A stretch of DNA of 64,000 nucleotides, from the NCBI RefSeq assembly GCF_001889405.1, contig NZ_CP017921.1, positions 124,001 to 188,000 of the forward strand, in the 5' to 3' direction. Both the position numbers and the translations under genes were made by a program. Of this stretch, positions 4,874 through 62,260 are shown one piece after another; the first letter of the stretch is position 1; every line of letters starts with the position of its first letter. The notes below the pieces were generated by a model that did not search any database, was not told where the DNA came from, and saw only the letters and a list, made by a program, of their open reading frames with translations. The DNA is from Methanohalophilus halophilus. Its GTDB lineage: Archaea; Halobacteriota; Methanosarcinia; Methanosarcinales; Methanosarcinaceae.

Positions 4874-5233
4874 TCAAAATTCCAATTTATCCATCTGCTT
4901 TAATACCTGTCTGCTGAAATCAGTGAAATTCTGGATACCACCTGTCCAGGCAGCAATCATCATACAATCCGTGATCTCAGTACGGGTCGCTCCAAATTTC
5001 TTGAGTCTTTCAAGAATTTTCACAGCGCTTTCACTGTTATTATTTGAACAGGCAATGGAAAAGACAAGAAGGTGTTTCTCCTTCATGGAGAGACCATCTT
5101 CCCTGTCTTCCCACACAGCAGCATAAAATGATGCAAGAGCTTCAGAGAAGTCTTCATTTATGTCCTGGGCATACCTTATGGAGCGTGGCAGGAAACCTTT
5201 GACTTCCTTCACCTTATCTGCATTTGTGCTCAT
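4874..5233 (-). CDS. Carboxymuconolactone decarboxylase / AhpD-like protein
   Basis: A 119-residue all-helical protein that looks like the AhpD/CMD superfamily (MKEKHLLVFSIACSNNN, then ATRTEITDCMMIAAWTGG). Most peroxidase-linked AhpD proteins carry a CxxC motif followed by histidine. Here only the single cysteine of SIACSNNN is present at that place, so a classical disulfide reductase role is doubtful. I chose the ATG at 5233 (MSTNADKVKE) with GGTGA upstream; a longer frame would overlap the superoxide reductase gene. Position next to peroxiredoxin suggests a partner role, which is inference. Confidence 0.75.
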   Translation of the reverse strand: MSTNADKVKEVKGFLPRSIRYAQDINEDFSEALASFYAAVWEDREDGLSMKEKHLLVFSIACSNNNSESAVKILERLKKFGATRTEITDCMMIAAWTGGIQNFTDFSRQVLKQMDKLEF

Positions 5234-7774: not shown

Positions 7775-8619
7775 TCCATTCCACTGCCCAGTTTACCTTC
7801 AAGCCTGTGCTGATAGAAAAGATACTGCTGGGCATAACCACAGTAATGTCCAAAATAGGATCTTGCCCATTCAGCCATTTTGGGTTTGGTATAAGGTCCT
7901 TCAAAACTATCGGAATAATAATTTCTGATAACCTTGTCAACATGGGTATCCACAGGAAAAGCTTCCATTTTTCCATAGGAGAAAAGGAGGATACAATCAG
8001 CCACCTTATCCCCGATGCCTTCTATAGTCATCAATTGCTGTTTGGCCTGGAAATAATCCATATCATACAGCCCATACAGATCTAACTCTCCTGATTCTAT
8101 CATCCGGGCAGCTTTGACAAGTCGGCGTGCCCTGAAACCCAGACTGCAGTCACAAAGATCCTCACCACAACAAGCTGCAAGGGCAGATATTTCAGGAAAG
8201 GCATAGATCCCATCAACAATTTCCTCCCCCAGCAGCCGGGAAAGTTTCTCGATGGATTTCATTATACGGGGGATATTCGAAGCGGTTGCTATCATATAAG
8301 ATACAAGACATTCCCAGGGATCCTGCATAACCAGTCGCAAACCCCTGTATTTTGATATTGCTTCATGTAAGTATGAATCATGATCAATTGAGGAAAAGAT
8401 ATAGGGCAGGTCATCGTCCAGCCTGAAATATTTCACAAAAAACTCAACCGGGAGACGGGAATCAATGTAAAGGGTCCACGCCTCCTTTTCATAGAAGGCA
8501 TGTACATAATCTCCCTGTACCACACCGTGCCACCAGTCATCTTCTTTTGACCAGCGAAATACCTGACCACAATCCAGAGTGTAGTCAAGATCAAAACATG
8601 AAGTCGGTATACTGTACAT
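7771..8619 (-). CDS. ogg: 8-oxoguanine DNA glycosylase/AP lyase, OGG1 type
   Basis: Excises oxidised guanine from DNA and nicks the abasic site. The 282-residue protein has an N-terminal OGG-like domain (CFDLDYTLDCGQVFRW) and a helix-hairpin-helix (HhH-GPD) domain with the catalytic lysine in IEGIGDKVADC and the catalytic aspartate in PVDTHVDKVI. I chose the ATG at 8619 (MYSIPTS), 10 bases after the iorB stop; a longer frame overlaps iorB. It is convergent with cca and overlaps it by four bases. Confidence 0.88.
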   Translation of the reverse strand: MYSIPTSCFDLDYTLDCGQVFRWSKEDDWWHGVVQGDYVHAFYEKEAWTLYIDSRLPVEFFVKYFRLDDDLPYIFSSIDHDSYLHEAISKYRGLRLVMQDPWECLVSYMIATASNIPRIMKSIEKLSRLLGEEIVDGIYAFPEISALAACCGEDLCDCSLGFRARRLVKAARMIESGELDLYGLYDMDYFQAKQQLMTIEGIGDKVADCILLFSYGKMEAFPVDTHVDKVIRNYYSDSFEGPYTKPKMAEWARSYFGHYCGYAQQYLFYQHRLEGKLGSGMD

Positions 8620-15041: not shown

Positions 15042-16754
15042 TCAGATCACCCCCATTCCTTCAAGCTCCCTTATTACCGATTGTGGTGTAAAGGGCAAGC
15101 CATCATATCTTAATATCTTTTTTGAAACTTCAAATCCTAATTCAGCCCGTAAAAGGCGTGCAAATTGACCTGTTGCATTATTTTCCACGCATATAGTGGT
15201 GTTCAACCCATCCAGTAAACTGAAAGTATCATGAGAAAACGGATAAATATCACTGAAATGAATCAAATTTATGGATACTTCGTCACGATTCAGGATGTCA
15301 ACTGCCTCAGCAAGGGGACCATAGGTAGATCCCCAGCCTATCAGGGAAATATCTGCTCCGTCTATACCATGAATAGCTGGCATTTGCATTTCATCCGTAA
15401 GTCCATCTACTTTGCGCAAACGTTTTTCGTTCATACGGATGCGATTATCAGTAGTCTGGTCAATATGACCTTCTTCATTGTGTTCATCACTGTCTGCAAC
15501 CACAAGTGCACCATTCTGCCCGGGTATAGCCCTCGGCGATATGCCGGATTCGGTGATTGCATATCTCTGGTAGTCACTGCTCACAGCCCGGTCTTCCAGA
15601 AGATGCCTGTTAATCTTCAGGCCGGATGTATCGAACCTCTCATAGGTAAAAAGACCATCTGCAAGATGCTGGTCACTCAATATCAGGACCGGAACCTGGT
15701 ATTTTTCAGCTATGTCAAATGCCCGTCTTGTCTGGTTGAAGGCGTCCTTTGCCGTACGAGGGGCAAGCACACAACGGGGAAATTCCCCCTGTGCCGCATG
15801 AAGCACAAAATTAAGGTCCCCCTGTTCGGTCATTGTGGGAAGGCCGGTAGCAGGTCCGGGACGCTGGCCCAGAAAGATGACAACCGGTGTCTCAGTGATG
15901 CCGGAGAGCCCCAGTCCTTCTGTCATCAGGCAGAAACCTCCACCAGAGGTAGTGGTCATGGCACGCACCCCTGCAAAGGATGCTCCGATGGCCATATTTA
16001 TGGCAGCGATCTCATCTTCGGCCTGCTCCACAACAGCATTGAAATCATCTGCATGTGCTGCCACACGAGTCATGACACCCGTTGAAGGGGTCATGGGATA
16101 TGCCGAAAGGAATTGCACTCCTGCAGCAAGGGCACCCACCCCCACACTGTCATTACCATTTATCAAAATCCTCCTGTTAGTCGGTTGTGGGTTGAGATTA
16201 TAGTTACAAACCCCCTCAAATTTACCATTTTTTACATAATCATAACCTGCTTGTGCTGCCTTTATGTTTTTTTCTACAACCTCATCACCTTTCCCTTTGA
16301 AAGTCTCAGAAAGGAATCTATTAAGTGTTGCAAGATCATAGCAAAGCAGGCCAAATACAGCTCCTACAGCAACGGTATTTGAAAATAATTTTTTACCACT
16401 TATATCCTTTGCAATTTCTGTGAAAGGAACAGATACTATATTCTCATTTACATTGTCCCCGACAATGGATTCATCGGCTAGCACGAATCCTTCTTTAACC
16501 TCTTCAATATGCTCAGGAATTGTCTGGTTGTCAAGAGCCACCAATATGTCTATCTTTTCATCCAGTGCATATATAGGATGATCACTCATCCTTATGTGGA
16601 AATAGTTGTGTCCGCCCCTTACTCTGGAAAGATAGAACTGGTTTCCATAAACATAGAAACCATCCCTTACAAATGTCCTTGAAAGAACCGATCCTATGGT
16701 TTGTATGCCCTGACCGGCTTCTCCACCTATTTTTATGTTTATATCGACGATAAT
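15042..16754 (-). CDS. korA: 2-oxoacid:ferredoxin oxidoreductase, fused gamma-alpha subunit
   Basis: About 570 residues. An N-terminal gamma domain (NIKIGGEAGQGIQTIG, then SRVRGGHNYFHIR) is fused to an alpha (pyrimidine-binding) domain (INGNDSVGVGALAAGVQFLSAYPMTPSTG cut into NGNDSVGVGALAAG and SAYPMTPSTG). The start is odd. The frame is open to an ATG at 16847, but that lies in or before a likely TATA element and adds residues unlike the family. The family start VDINIKIGG follows an AGGGGGA motif with no ATG, GTG or TTG at normal spacing; ATT at 16754 or ATC at 16751 are the nearest candidates. A TTG farther upstream (leucine 22 of the long frame) is possible. Confidence 0.85.
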   Translation of the reverse strand: MIVDINIKIGGEAGQGIQTIGSVLSRTFVRDGFYVYGNQFYLSRVRGGHNYFHIRMSDHPIYALDEKIDILVALDNQTIPEHIEEVKEGFVLADESIVGDNVNENIVSVPFTEIAKDISGKKLFSNTVAVGAVFGLLCYDLATLNRFLSETFKGKGDEVVEKNIKAAQAGYDYVKNGKFEGVCNYNLNPQPTNRRILINGNDSVGVGALAAGVQFLSAYPMTPSTGVMTRVAAHADDFNAVVEQAEDEIAAINMAIGASFAGVRAMTTTSGGGFCLMTEGLGLSGITETPVVIFLGQRPGPATGLPTMTEQGDLNFVLHAAQGEFPRCVLAPRTAKDAFNQTRRAFDIAEKYQVPVLILSDQHLADGLFTYERFDTSGLKINRHLLEDRAVSSDYQRYAITESGISPRAIPGQNGALVVADSDEHNEEGHIDQTTDNRIRMNEKRLRKVDGLTDEMQMPAIHGIDGADISLIGWGSTYGPLAEAVDILNRDEVSINLIHFSDIYPFSHDTFSLLDGLNTTICVENNATGQFARLLRAELGFEVSKKILRYDGLPFTPQSVIRELEGMGVI

Positions 16755-17959: not shown

Positions 17960-19585
17960 GTGAGGGGGTTCTTTTTGGTCGAAGTGATGACTAAAGGAGA
18001 TGGTTTTTCCAGAACAAAGAGCAAAATAGAAGAATCTGGTGGAGAAAATATAGATTTATTAAAGCAGCGTATACTTGATCTGGAAAAAGAAGTCTCAAAA
18101 AAAGATGATCTATTCAATAAATTTGTCGAAAACCAGAACGAAGTCATCTTTTCCGTAAATACCAGGGGAGACTTCACATACCTGAACCCGGCAATCGAAA
18201 GAATGACCGGGTATAAAGTAGAGGAAGTCATCGGCAAATCCTATACACAATACATTTATCCCGAGGACCTGCCTGGCCTACAGAGAGATCTGGAAAAAAC
18301 CATTCAAGGAATCCACAATCCCTACATGTTTCGTATAATTGACAAAGGGGGCAACATAAAATACGTACACACATCCTCAAAACCTATTTTCGAGAAAGGT
18401 GAACTTGTAGGTATAAGCGGAGTAATGGTCGACATCCAGAAACTCAAGCAGGTTGAGAAAAAACTAAAAAGTGAAAAAGACAAGGTCCGCCAGTATCTTG
18501 ATGTCGCCGGAATAATTATACTTGTAGCAGACAGGGATCTCAAAATCAGTCTGGCTAACAAGAAAGCCTCCGAATGTACCGGGATTAAAAAGGATGAAAT
18601 TAACGGCAGGAACCTGATAGAAACCTTTGTTCCCGAAAAGGAAAAAGATCATGTCAGGCAAATATGCAAAAACCTGCTTGACAGGAAGATAAATGAAAAA
18701 CACTGTGAATTTAATCTTCTTGATTACCGGGGAAACCTGAGAAACTACATCTGGAATTTCTCATATTTCTCAGATGAAAATGAAAATATAGAGGGGATAA
18801 TCCTTGCAGGTGAAGACATAACCAATCAGAAAAAGACAGAAGAAACCCTGATAAAAGCAAGACTCCTTGCAGAATCATCCAACCGTACAAAAAGTGAATT
18901 CATAGCCAACATGAGTCATGAACTCAGGACCCCATTAAATTCAGTGATTGGTTTTACAGATGTTGTTCTCACGGAAAGGCATGGACTTCTTAATGAAAAA
19001 CAGAAAAGATATATGACAAACGTATCAAAAAACGGACATCACCTGCTTGATCTGATTAATAATTTACTTGATATTTCAAGAATCGAAACCTGCAAGATGG
19101 AAATGAAGGTTCAGAAGGTCGAATTTGTGCCCTTCATGAAAGAAATCCGGGAAAAAATCAAGCATATGGAAGCCAAAAGAGGGGCAATTATCAATTTCAC
19201 CATCGAGAATGAAAAAGATATTATGTACGTAGATACGGATAAAATTGAGGAAATAATTTATAATCTCGTGGATAATGCTTTTAAGTTTACACCAAAAGGA
19301 AAAACAATCACTGTCAAATCCGCACTCAACCCGCTTGAACTTTAGATAGATGTCATCGACACAGGTATCGGTATCAATGAAAATGATATTGACAGGATTT
19401 TTGAACCCTTCACACAGGTGGATTCTTCAAGCACCAGAAAGTACCAGGGCACAGGACTTGGACTTGCGCTGGTTAAAAAATTCACAGAAATGCACAATGG
19501 AAAAGTGGCCGTGAAAAGTCACCCTTCAATGGGAAGTACTTTTATGGTAAGAATTCCGAGAAAAGAAATGCGTTGGGAAAGCTAA
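17960..19585 (+). CDS. PAS-PAS sensor histidine kinase with an in-frame TAG (possible pyrrolysine) at codon 462
   Basis: A 541-residue soluble sensor kinase if TAG is read through. Order: short coiled region (31-52), PAS 1 (about 55-165), PAS 2 (about 175-290), dimerisation/phosphoacceptor domain with H320 in MSHELRTPLNS, and a HATPase domain with the N box (N439 in NLVDNAFKFTPKG). TAG at 19343-19345 is followed without frame change by IDVIDTGIGI (G1 box), EPFTQVDSSS (F box), GTGLGLALVK (G2 box) and a TAA stop. If TAG stopped translation, the protein would lack the G1, F and G2 boxes and be inactive. The start is GTG 17960 (AAGGAAG upstream); ATG 17987 is possible. No transmembrane segment and no adjacent response regulator are seen. 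Confidence 0.85.
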
Positions 19586-50319: not shown

Positions 50320-50955
50320 ATGATAGATCTGCATACACATACAATATTCAGCGATGGAGAACTTATTCCAAGTGAGCAGGTCCGCAGGGCAAAAACCCTC
50401 GGATATGAGGCAATCGGACTTACAGACCATGCCGATTTCACCAATGTAGAACACATCCTCAACTGTGTTACCAAAGCAAAATACCTGGAAGAGCTAATGG
50501 ACATAAAGGTGCTTCCCGGAATTGAGATCACACATGTGCCCCCTGAAAAAATAGCATCCCTTGCAAAACTTGCAAGAGAACTGGGAGCCGAAATTGTGGT
50601 TGTACACGGAGAAAGTCCGGTTGAACCTGTTTTGCCCGGCACAAACCGTGCCGCTGTGGAATGTCAGGATGTGGATATCCTGGCACACCCCGGTTTTATC
50701 ACCCTAGAGGAAGCCGAAATTGCAGCAGACAACAATGTATGTCTGGAAATTACAGCAAGAGGTGGACATAACAGCACCAATGGGCATGTTGCCAAAATCG
50801 CAAAACTTAGCGGTGCGACAATGGTCGTGGATACCGATTCACACCATCCTTCTGACCTGATTACAAAAAGCACTGCATTGAAAGTGGCAATGGGAGCAGG
50901 TCTTGAAAAGGATGAAGCAAAGCAGGTGCTGGAAAATTCAAGAGGCCTTATCTGA
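50320..50955 (+). CDS. PHP-domain phosphoesterase (histidinol-phosphatase-like)
   Basis: A 211-residue PHP-fold metal phosphoesterase. Metal ligands are visible in IDLHTHTIFSDGEL (HxH), LTDHADF, GIEITHV, VVHGES, LAHPGF and DTDSHHPSD. The ATG at 50320 follows AGGAA and begins at the first conserved strand; a longer frame would overlap DUF211 on the other strand. It might be the histidinol phosphatase of the histidine pathway, or act on DNA or nucleotides. Two bases separate its stop from the start of the cyclase gene, so they form an operon. Confidence 0.85.
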   Translation: MIDLHTHTIFSDGELIPSEQVRRAKTLGYEAIGLTDHADFTNVEHILNCVTKAKYLEELMDIKVLPGIEITHVPPEKIASLAKLARELGAEIVVVHGESPVEPVLPGTNRAAVECQDVDILAHPGFITLEEAEIAADNNVCLEITARGGHNSTNGHVAKIAKLSGATMVVDTDSHHPSDLITKSTALKVAMGAGLEKDEAKQVLENSRGLI

Positions 50956-50957
50956 AA

Positions 50958-51569
50958 ATGACATAGGAAATTATTGATATTACACGATCCATCGCTCCTG
51001 AAACCAGAGTTTATCCGGGAGATCCAAAAGTTACCGTTGAAAGGATTGCTTCTATAGAATCCTGCGGATACAGTGTCTCAAAACTTGAAATGGGAAGCCA
51101 CACTGCCACCCATATCGATGCTCCCGCCCATATATTAGAGGGCGGGGCCACGGTGGATGAAGTGGACTTGTCCTCTCTTGTGGGCAGGGCTTATCTGATC
51201 GATCTTTCCGGGAAAAACGAAATCGGAAATGACGAAATAGAAAAAGCCTTTCCCTTCAAAGAAAAAGGCAGATGTGAAATCGTATTGCTGAAAACTGAAT
51301 CATCAGACCAAAATTTTGCAAGAATACTTCCCGACACCGCAGAATGGATTGCCAAAAAAGGATACCTGACAGTTGGAATCGATTCAGAGTCGGTGGATTC
51401 CGGAGAAGAATTGGACAACCACATGATATTGCTTGGAAAAGGAATCAATATCATTGAGAACCTGGACCTTAAAAATGTTGAACCGGGTTATTATGGATTT
51501 GTCTGTCTGCCACTAAAAATAAAAGAATGTGATGGGGCACCGGCGCGGGCAATACTTCTCCAGTCATAA
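50958..51569 (+). CDS. Cyclase-family (kynurenine formamidase-like) metal hydrolase with TAG as codon 3
   Basis: A 203-residue protein of the cyclase family, which includes kynurenine formamidase and isatin hydrolase. The metal-binding motif is SHTATHIDAPAHIL (H-x-x-x-H-x-D). The conserved N-terminal strand and PGDP turn (EIIDITRSIAP, then VYPGDPKV) are encoded upstream of the first uninterrupted ATG at 51090. The only standard start ahead of them is ATG 50958, two bases after the PHP stop, which gives ATG-ACA-TAG-GAA. Full-length protein therefore needs decoding of TAG at 50964-50966 (as pyrrolysine or by suppression) or a non-standard start such as ATT. Starting at 51090 would remove about 44 conserved residues. 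Confidence 0.8.
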
Positions 51570-52118
51570 GTTTGAGTCAATCCATTCCACAAACTTGTCC
51601 ACGGCACGTCTTCTGTGGGATACTTTATTCTTTTCCTCATCTCCCATCTCACCAAATGTCCGGCCACCATACAAAAATATAGGGTCATAGCCAAAGCCGC
51701 CTTCCCCTTTTTCTTCATAAGCGATGTTGCCTTCAACCGTACCGGTAAACGTCAGGGGTTCTTTTCCAGGCTCACAGTAGCCAATAACGGATTTAAAATA
51801 AGCACTGCGATTTTCTTCATCCTCCATCAATTTCAGGACTTTAGGATTGCCAAGATGATCCTCCACAAAGGCGGAATACGGACCAGGAAAACCATTCAGG
51901 GCATCGATGAAAAGCCCAGAATCATCAACTATCACGGGCAATCCCAGCTTTTCACAGACCCGACGAGCACCATCGGCTGCGATTGGTTCCAGGTCATCTT
52001 CCTGTAATTCAGGGTAACCATCGGTGTTCTGGAGGACCTCAATTCCCCTCTGTCCCAGGATTTCCTTTATTTCTCTGAATTTGCCACTGTTGCCGGTAAC
52101 GAATATAATTTTGCGCAT
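51564..52118 (-). CDS. rdgB: XTP/dITP pyrophosphatase
   Basis: House-cleaning nucleotide pyrophosphatase (HAM1/RdgB) that removes inosine and xanthosine triphosphates. The 184-residue protein has IIFVTGNSGKFREI at the N-terminus, the catalytic VVDDSGLFIDALNGFPGPYSAFV, and GGFGYDPIFL and SHRRRA at the end. It overlaps the convergent cyclase gene by six bases. Normal archaeal length. Confidence 0.95.
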   Translation of the reverse strand: MRKIIFVTGNSGKFREIKEILGQRGIEVLQNTDGYPELQEDDLEPIAADGARRVCEKLGLPVIVDDSGLFIDALNGFPGPYSAFVEDHLGNPKVLKLMEDEENRSAYFKSVIGYCEPGKEPLTFTGTVEGNIAYEEKGEGGFGYDPIFLYGGRTFGEMGDEEKNKVSHRRRAVDKFVEWIDSNL

Positions 52119-60856: not shown

Positions 60857-62260
60857 TTAGCCTGTGATTTCCCTGAATTTGTCACAGCAGTTGATGTCAA
60901 TATCGAGAAGTTTCTCAATATTCATCTTGGATGCGATACCCTTGGCACATCCTGGAACGGATGTAAGTACGCCAATGTCAAGGTCTTCACGGATTTCCCT
61001 CATGACATGCTCGTCACCCAGGTCAAGTGCTTCAACCCCGAGTTTCTTGGCAACATAGTCCTTGGCTTCATTTATGCGCATGTCCTTGGAGAACTGCATC
61101 CTGGCAACAAGGTCACCGGCTGCACGCATACCTGTAAGACCGGATGCCATGATGTGTGAGATTGGCATACCTATTGGGTCGCCAACTCCGATCTATATAC
61201 CATCGACACCTGCAACTTCAACCATTGCCTTGCTGGCACGGGTTACTGCATCGATCGGTGGAGTCTCGAACATTGGAATACCGCCGACACCCATACCCAT
61301 ATCAACATGACAGGGGATGTTTGAAGCTTCAACTGCAGCTTTGGTGAAGGTGACTGAGCGGGCAAGATTCCATGCGGAAGACTTGCTGGTATTGGTGTTA
61401 CAAACCGGACCGAACACGTTTGCACCAGCCTTTTCTGCAAGTGGTGCCTGTTCATGTGGCCACAGACCAGCAAGAACATTACCTTCAAACTCAAGTTCGC
61501 CGTGCATACCAAGAGTCAATTCACCGGCCATACCTGCTTCGATGTAGATGTTGGGGAATTCTTCCCTGAGTGCCTTGATAGAATAAAGGGAAGCATAAAA
61601 ATCACCATCTCCGGCTGCACCGATAGTATCGAAGTTGACACCGTCACAACCTACTTTCTGAAGGTGCTGCATGATCCAGGTCATGTCACGGGTTGCATGA
61701 TCACCGGCATGCTCGATGGATTCACGGGCTTCTTTGATCTTGAAAGCCTTCATGAGGTCACCAGGGTTTTCGAATGGACCATCTGGTGTATAATAGAGAC
61801 CAAGGTTTGGCATTGCACCGTAGAGAAGGGGGACAGTCATGTTCTGCTGACAGACTTCCATTGCCTGCTGTTCCTGGGCAATTACTGGTTTGACAGGTTT
61901 GAAACTGTAGTCGATATGACCCAATTCCATTGTGTCAGCACCGAAACCTCTCTCGTGCATCATACAGCCAGTAAGACGGCTGGATGGGATGCCTACTCCG
62001 CTGTTACCCTGGTCACCATCGATCCTGAGAGTTCCAATGTCGTGGGTAACCGGGATTTCCATACCTGGTTCGACACTGACAAGGCGGTTGGGATTCATTA
62101 TGATGTCTGCGAGTTTGTCAATTTGGTCCCCGGAAAGTTCAGGAATGTTACCAAGGTCTGCTGCATCTGCACTACCTTCCTGCAGGTCTGCAATTATCTG
62201 CTCCTTGGTCATGGAGATTCTTTCACCGTCTCCCATTCTTAAGAAATATTCATTTGCCAT
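60857..62260 (-). CDS. mtbB: Dimethylamine:corrinoid methyltransferase with pyrrolysine codon 356
   Basis: Transfers a methyl group from dimethylamine to the corrinoid protein MtbC. The full frame is 467 residues, the usual MtbB length, if TAG at 61193-61195 (codon 356) is read as pyrrolysine; the flanking [21 protein letters not shown] matches the known Pyl site of MtbB. The N-terminus [15 protein letters not shown] and the central segment [12 protein letters not shown] are characteristic. The last 111 residues after TAG complete the barrel. A gap of 11 bases separates it from mtbC, with AAGGTGATT as its SD. Automated calling would report it as two broken frames. Confidence 0.96.

Follow-up and report, generated by a model that had tools for sequence, protein, structure and literature searches.

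We identified in Methanohalophilus halophilus, a member of a genus of halophilic methanogenic archaea, a functional gene for a small, kynurenine-formamidase-like metal-dependent hydrolase (PF04199) that is very probably translated through a TAG at its third codon, presumably as pyrrolysine (Pyl). Read-through at this codon, as an earlier note made from the sequence alone had proposed, is strongly supported by a start column shared with orthologs, the constraint on codons 4-44, the lack of a fallback start in M. mahii, a complete pyl cassette in the genome and the rarity of TAG as a stop. The window, that is, the whole stretch of DNA analysed, is 64,000 nucleotides long, and all coordinates given without a further label refer to it.

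The full-length cyclase-family gene (50958-51569, + strand) consists of 203 codons plus TAA and reads ATG ACA TAG GAA ATT ATT GAT ATT from its start codon (50958-50960), with the TAG at 50964-50966 and an open frame past it until the TAA at 51567-51569. Directly upstream on the same strand lies a PHP-domain gene (50320-50955; NF004981, histidinol phosphate phosphatase domain, assigned by profile), whose TGA at 50953-50955 precedes the cyclase ATG by two bases, the spacing that the note had given along with the TAG at codon 3. Downstream, the convergent Ham1/XTP pyrophosphatase gene (51564-52118, - strand) overlaps the cyclase stop with its last bases. This TAA is GAA in the congeneric genome G034 and TAC in G036, with a TGA two codons beyond. 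After the TAG, the earliest ATG, GTG or TTG is the ATG at codon 45 (51090-51092). ORF calling with table 11 chooses this false start and returns a protein of 159 aa, short by 44 residues, which bears out the anticipated loss of about 44 conserved residues in standard annotation. The codons dropped in this way, 4-44 (50967-51089), encode the first β-strand and the PGDP turn, both located as claimed between the two ATGs.

The encoded protein contains a full PF04199 domain, matching profile positions 1-141 of 142 with 82.5 bits against a cut-off of 23.1. From its second residue onward, the 203-residue read-through product matches PDB structures of bacterial kynurenine formamidases, and its AlphaFold2 model (mean pLDDT 81) adopts the same fold, with a strand at residues 4-7 right after residue 3. 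In the ortholog alignment, invariant residues among the first 44 are D7, I8, I12, Y19, G21, D22, P23, G37 and V40, and the conserved His/Asp motif corresponds to H48/H52/D54/H58. The arylformamidase equivalog TIGR03035 gave 132.5 bits, below its curated cut-off of 223.05; we infer an amidase or a hydrolase of another type.

We compared the locus across eight genomes of the genus Methanohalophilus. The cyclase gene was present in six, including M. euhalobius WG-1MB, Methanohalophilus sp. RSK and M. mahii (G033), and all six carried ATG-ACA-TAG at the identical place. The congeneric orthologs shared 84-86% protein identity and had an intact frame after the TAG; finding the same triplets and an intact ortholog in six genomes rules out both a sequencing error and a frame that is open by chance. 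In the other two congeners Ham1 comes straight after the PHP gene; the cyclase gene is cleanly absent, and no decayed copy was seen. Pairwise comparison of codons 4-44 among the six species gave dN/dS values of 0.07-0.24 at dS of approximately 0.1-0.6, a constraint equal to that elsewhere in the gene. M. mahii has ATA in place of the ATG at codon 45, and its earliest standard start past the TAG is a GTG at codon 75, which falls beyond the H48/H52/D54/H58 motif. Fourfold-degenerate sites were invariant across the six species at 39 of 67 positions, a proportion that when cubed gives a chance of about 0.2 that a neutral triplet would remain unchanged. Genus-wide conservation of the TAG is thus by itself no proof of selection for Pyl, and its retention across six species is suggestive, no more.

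Outside the genus, 26 of the 35 orthologs examined had an ATG exactly four codons ahead of the IIDIT strand and a sense codon at position 3. The ATG at 50958 therefore lies in the column that most orthologs in other genera use for initiation, the opposite of the later start for which a check of homologs had been suggested. Codon 3 in these orthologs was AAG, AAA, AGG, GGC or TTC, among others (AAG or AAA in genera g14, g11 and g9), and the encoded residue was K, R, G, F, S, T, E or V. Since the codon differs so widely among relatives, comparison of the sequences indicates that position 3 is variable and tolerant. In the ortholog tree Methanohalophilus sits on its own long branch with an unsupported sister, which makes any ancestral codon 3 a guess.

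The genome contains the means to decode TAG. A tRNA-Pyl(CUA) was detected with ARAGORN and pylS by profile, and the pylTSBCD genes lie together in one cassette, pylB, pylC and pylD having been assigned from ORF order and sequence without a profile; PylS was found in 8/8 congeners. We counted the stop codons used in the window and in a further 400 kb of genome stretches. Within the window, 60 of the 62 non-overlapping ORFs of at least 80 aa end in TAA or TGA, and the two 'ending' in TAG belong to MtbB and a PAS-histidine kinase, both of which continue past the TAG. Were TAG used as a stop as often as its 0.17 share of the three triplets predicts, zero TAG ends among 61 ORFs would be expected with p ~1e-5. 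In the further 400 kb, TAG ends 9 of 372 ORFs; at least three of the nine TAGs lie within a gene (TYW2/Trm5, AMP-binding and MtmB), a fourth belongs to an AAA-ATPase gene, and several of the remainder are in short ORFs that may be spurious. TAG thus hardly ever serves as a terminator in this genome. The TAG of the AAA-ATPase gene (L096:7104-8894, + strand), at 8460-8462, is followed by 144 further open codons and may be either stop or sense. A 2025 Science paper by Kivenson and colleagues reportedly describes an archaeal code in which all TAG codons are read as Pyl. The scarcity of TAG stops agrees with the amber depletion reported for Pyl archaea (PMC3941956, PMC4153887) and with mass spectrometry that demonstrated UAG-directed Pyl insertion in the MttB protein of M. 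portucalensis (PMC4928046). In E. coli Pyl incorporation needs no cis element (PMC8211752).

TAG also occurs within other genes of the genus. The window encodes on its - strand the dimethylamine methyltransferase MtbB (60860-62260), with the usual Pyl codon at 61193-61195, and on its + strand the PAS-histidine kinase (17960-19582), with a TAG in the ATPase domain (19343-19345). The ortholog of the kinase in G034, 93% identical, has GAG at this position, and the TAG is so read as a recent change from Glu. A TYW2/Trm5-type methyltransferase gene (L091:14771-15589, - strand) has a TAG at 15284-15286 in this genome only, where five congeners have a Ser codon, TCG or TCA. Similarly, an AMP-binding enzyme gene (L100:4418-6031, - strand) has a private TAG at 4916-4918, where four congeners have a Gln codon, CAG or CAA. 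The TAG of the M. mahii citrate synthase gene (L079 in G033; PMC3017947) corresponds to GAA (Glu) in G034; this gene is intact without TAG in G034 and G032, and only C-terminal pieces were matched in G000, G031, G035 and G036. Each of these four non-methyltransferase TAGs is private to one species, whereas the cyclase TAG is common to six. The four look as if point mutations had recently turned Ser, Gln or Glu codons into TAG, and their scattered occurrence suggests that TAG acts as an ordinary sense codon, drifting as such in Methanohalophilus.

Two readings would leave the TAG untranslated. Translation might begin past it, at the ATT codons at 50970 or 50973 or at the ATG at 51090 that table 11 selects, which would place the TAG in the leader. 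ATT is a rare start codon in some bacterial genes. However, codons 4-44 are under selection at the protein level, the ancestral ATG column has been kept, M. mahii has ATA at codon 45, and G036 has ATA in place of the second ATT and AGAA in place of the AGGA preceding the first. The selection on codons 4-44 together with the M. mahii sequence argues against these starts, and we regard initiation beyond the TAG as very improbable. The gene could otherwise be a pseudogene, or be dying by nonsense mutation, and its absence from two congeners does indicate that it is dispensable. Against this, the frame after the TAG is free of further stops and frameshifts and dN/dS is low across all six species, which argues against decay and leaves this reading with next to no probability.

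A different possibility accepts read-through and gives it a function. The TAG may have been selectively kept as a start-proximal translational checkpoint that ties the hydrolase to the supply of Pyl-tRNA. Production of the enzyme would then be confined to times when Pyl-tRNA is at hand, during growth on methylamines, and translation would otherwise terminate after a dipeptide. Retention in 6/6 species, set against other non-methyltransferase TAGs confined to single species, would fit such a switch, as would the presumably negligible cost of terminating at codon 3, and organism-dependent handling of the Pyl cassette has been discussed (PMC4153887). However, the variability of position 3 in relatives is consistent with simple tolerance, and the near-absence of TAG stops and the presence of TAG in other genes point to steady decoding. 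A neutral triplet would have been retained with a probability of about 0.2, and the immediate neighbours, PHP and Ham1, are without known link to methylamine metabolism. Folding of the RNA flanking the TAG was no better than chance against shuffled sequences (z 0.65 to 1.39), and this analysis found no read-through element. The simple gate envisaged in the earlier note thus gained no positive support from the variable codon, the unremarkable RNA structure or the scattered private TAGs, and we consider selection for a checkpoint unlikely. If true, it would represent a class of regulation invisible to current searches for Pyl genes.

We therefore favour plain translation through the TAG. Ribosomes would initiate at the ATG at 50958, probably by coupling to termination on the PHP gene, which ends two bases earlier, and Pyl-tRNA(CUA) supplied by the pylTSBCD cassette would decode the TAG to give Met-Thr-Pyl-Glu-Ile-Ile-Asp and onwards, yielding the full 203-residue enzyme. 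We infer that residue 3 is Pyl itself and that decoding is efficient; near-cognate insertion, or a restart of translation at a non-standard codon, would also be compatible with the sequence. The most likely origin of the TAG is a single substitution in a sense codon, most simply AAG (Lys), at a tolerant site right before the first β-strand. Because TAG in effect functions as a sense codon in Methanohalophilus, this one would then have persisted while the six species radiated.

The cyclase would add to the Pyl proteins outside methylamine metabolism one conserved over most of a genus. Among the papers that a literature search found, none names the gene as encoding a Pyl protein. Its novelty is modest, and lies in the start-proximal TAG, the retention in six species and the likely invisibility to annotation. 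With a TAG among its first few codons, a gene looks shortened and not interrupted, and the cyclase TAG should escape screens in which a TAG-interrupted CDS is joined to its 3' part. This is a blind spot in which such Pyl proteins are probably undercounted and their N-termini misannotated.

Among known systems, the closest are the Pyl proteins that are not methyltransferases: those listed for Ca. Methanomethylophilus alvus (PMC4153887), Thg1 of M. acetivorans (PMC2933860) and the citrate synthase of M. mahii (PMC3017947). As in these cases, the cyclase gene has an in-frame TAG with no known need of Pyl chemistry, homologs with ordinary residues at this position, and a host genome that encodes pylTSBCD and seldom uses TAG as a stop. 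It differs in that only two codons precede the TAG, and in that the TAG is retained across six species, theirs being found in one. The methylamine methyltransferases MtmB, MtbB and MttB share the TAG decoding machinery with the cyclase, and MtbB is encoded in the same window. However, they carry a catalytic Pyl far within the protein, whereas that of the cyclase would be N-terminal and at a variable position. In fold and sequence the cyclase matches, over residues 2-202 and including the His/Asp motif, kynurenine formamidase (PDB 4co9, 4cog) and the PF04199 hydrolases 1r61, 8hmo and 2b0a (MJ0783), and it is set apart from these enzymes by the TAG, putatively Pyl, at residue 3.
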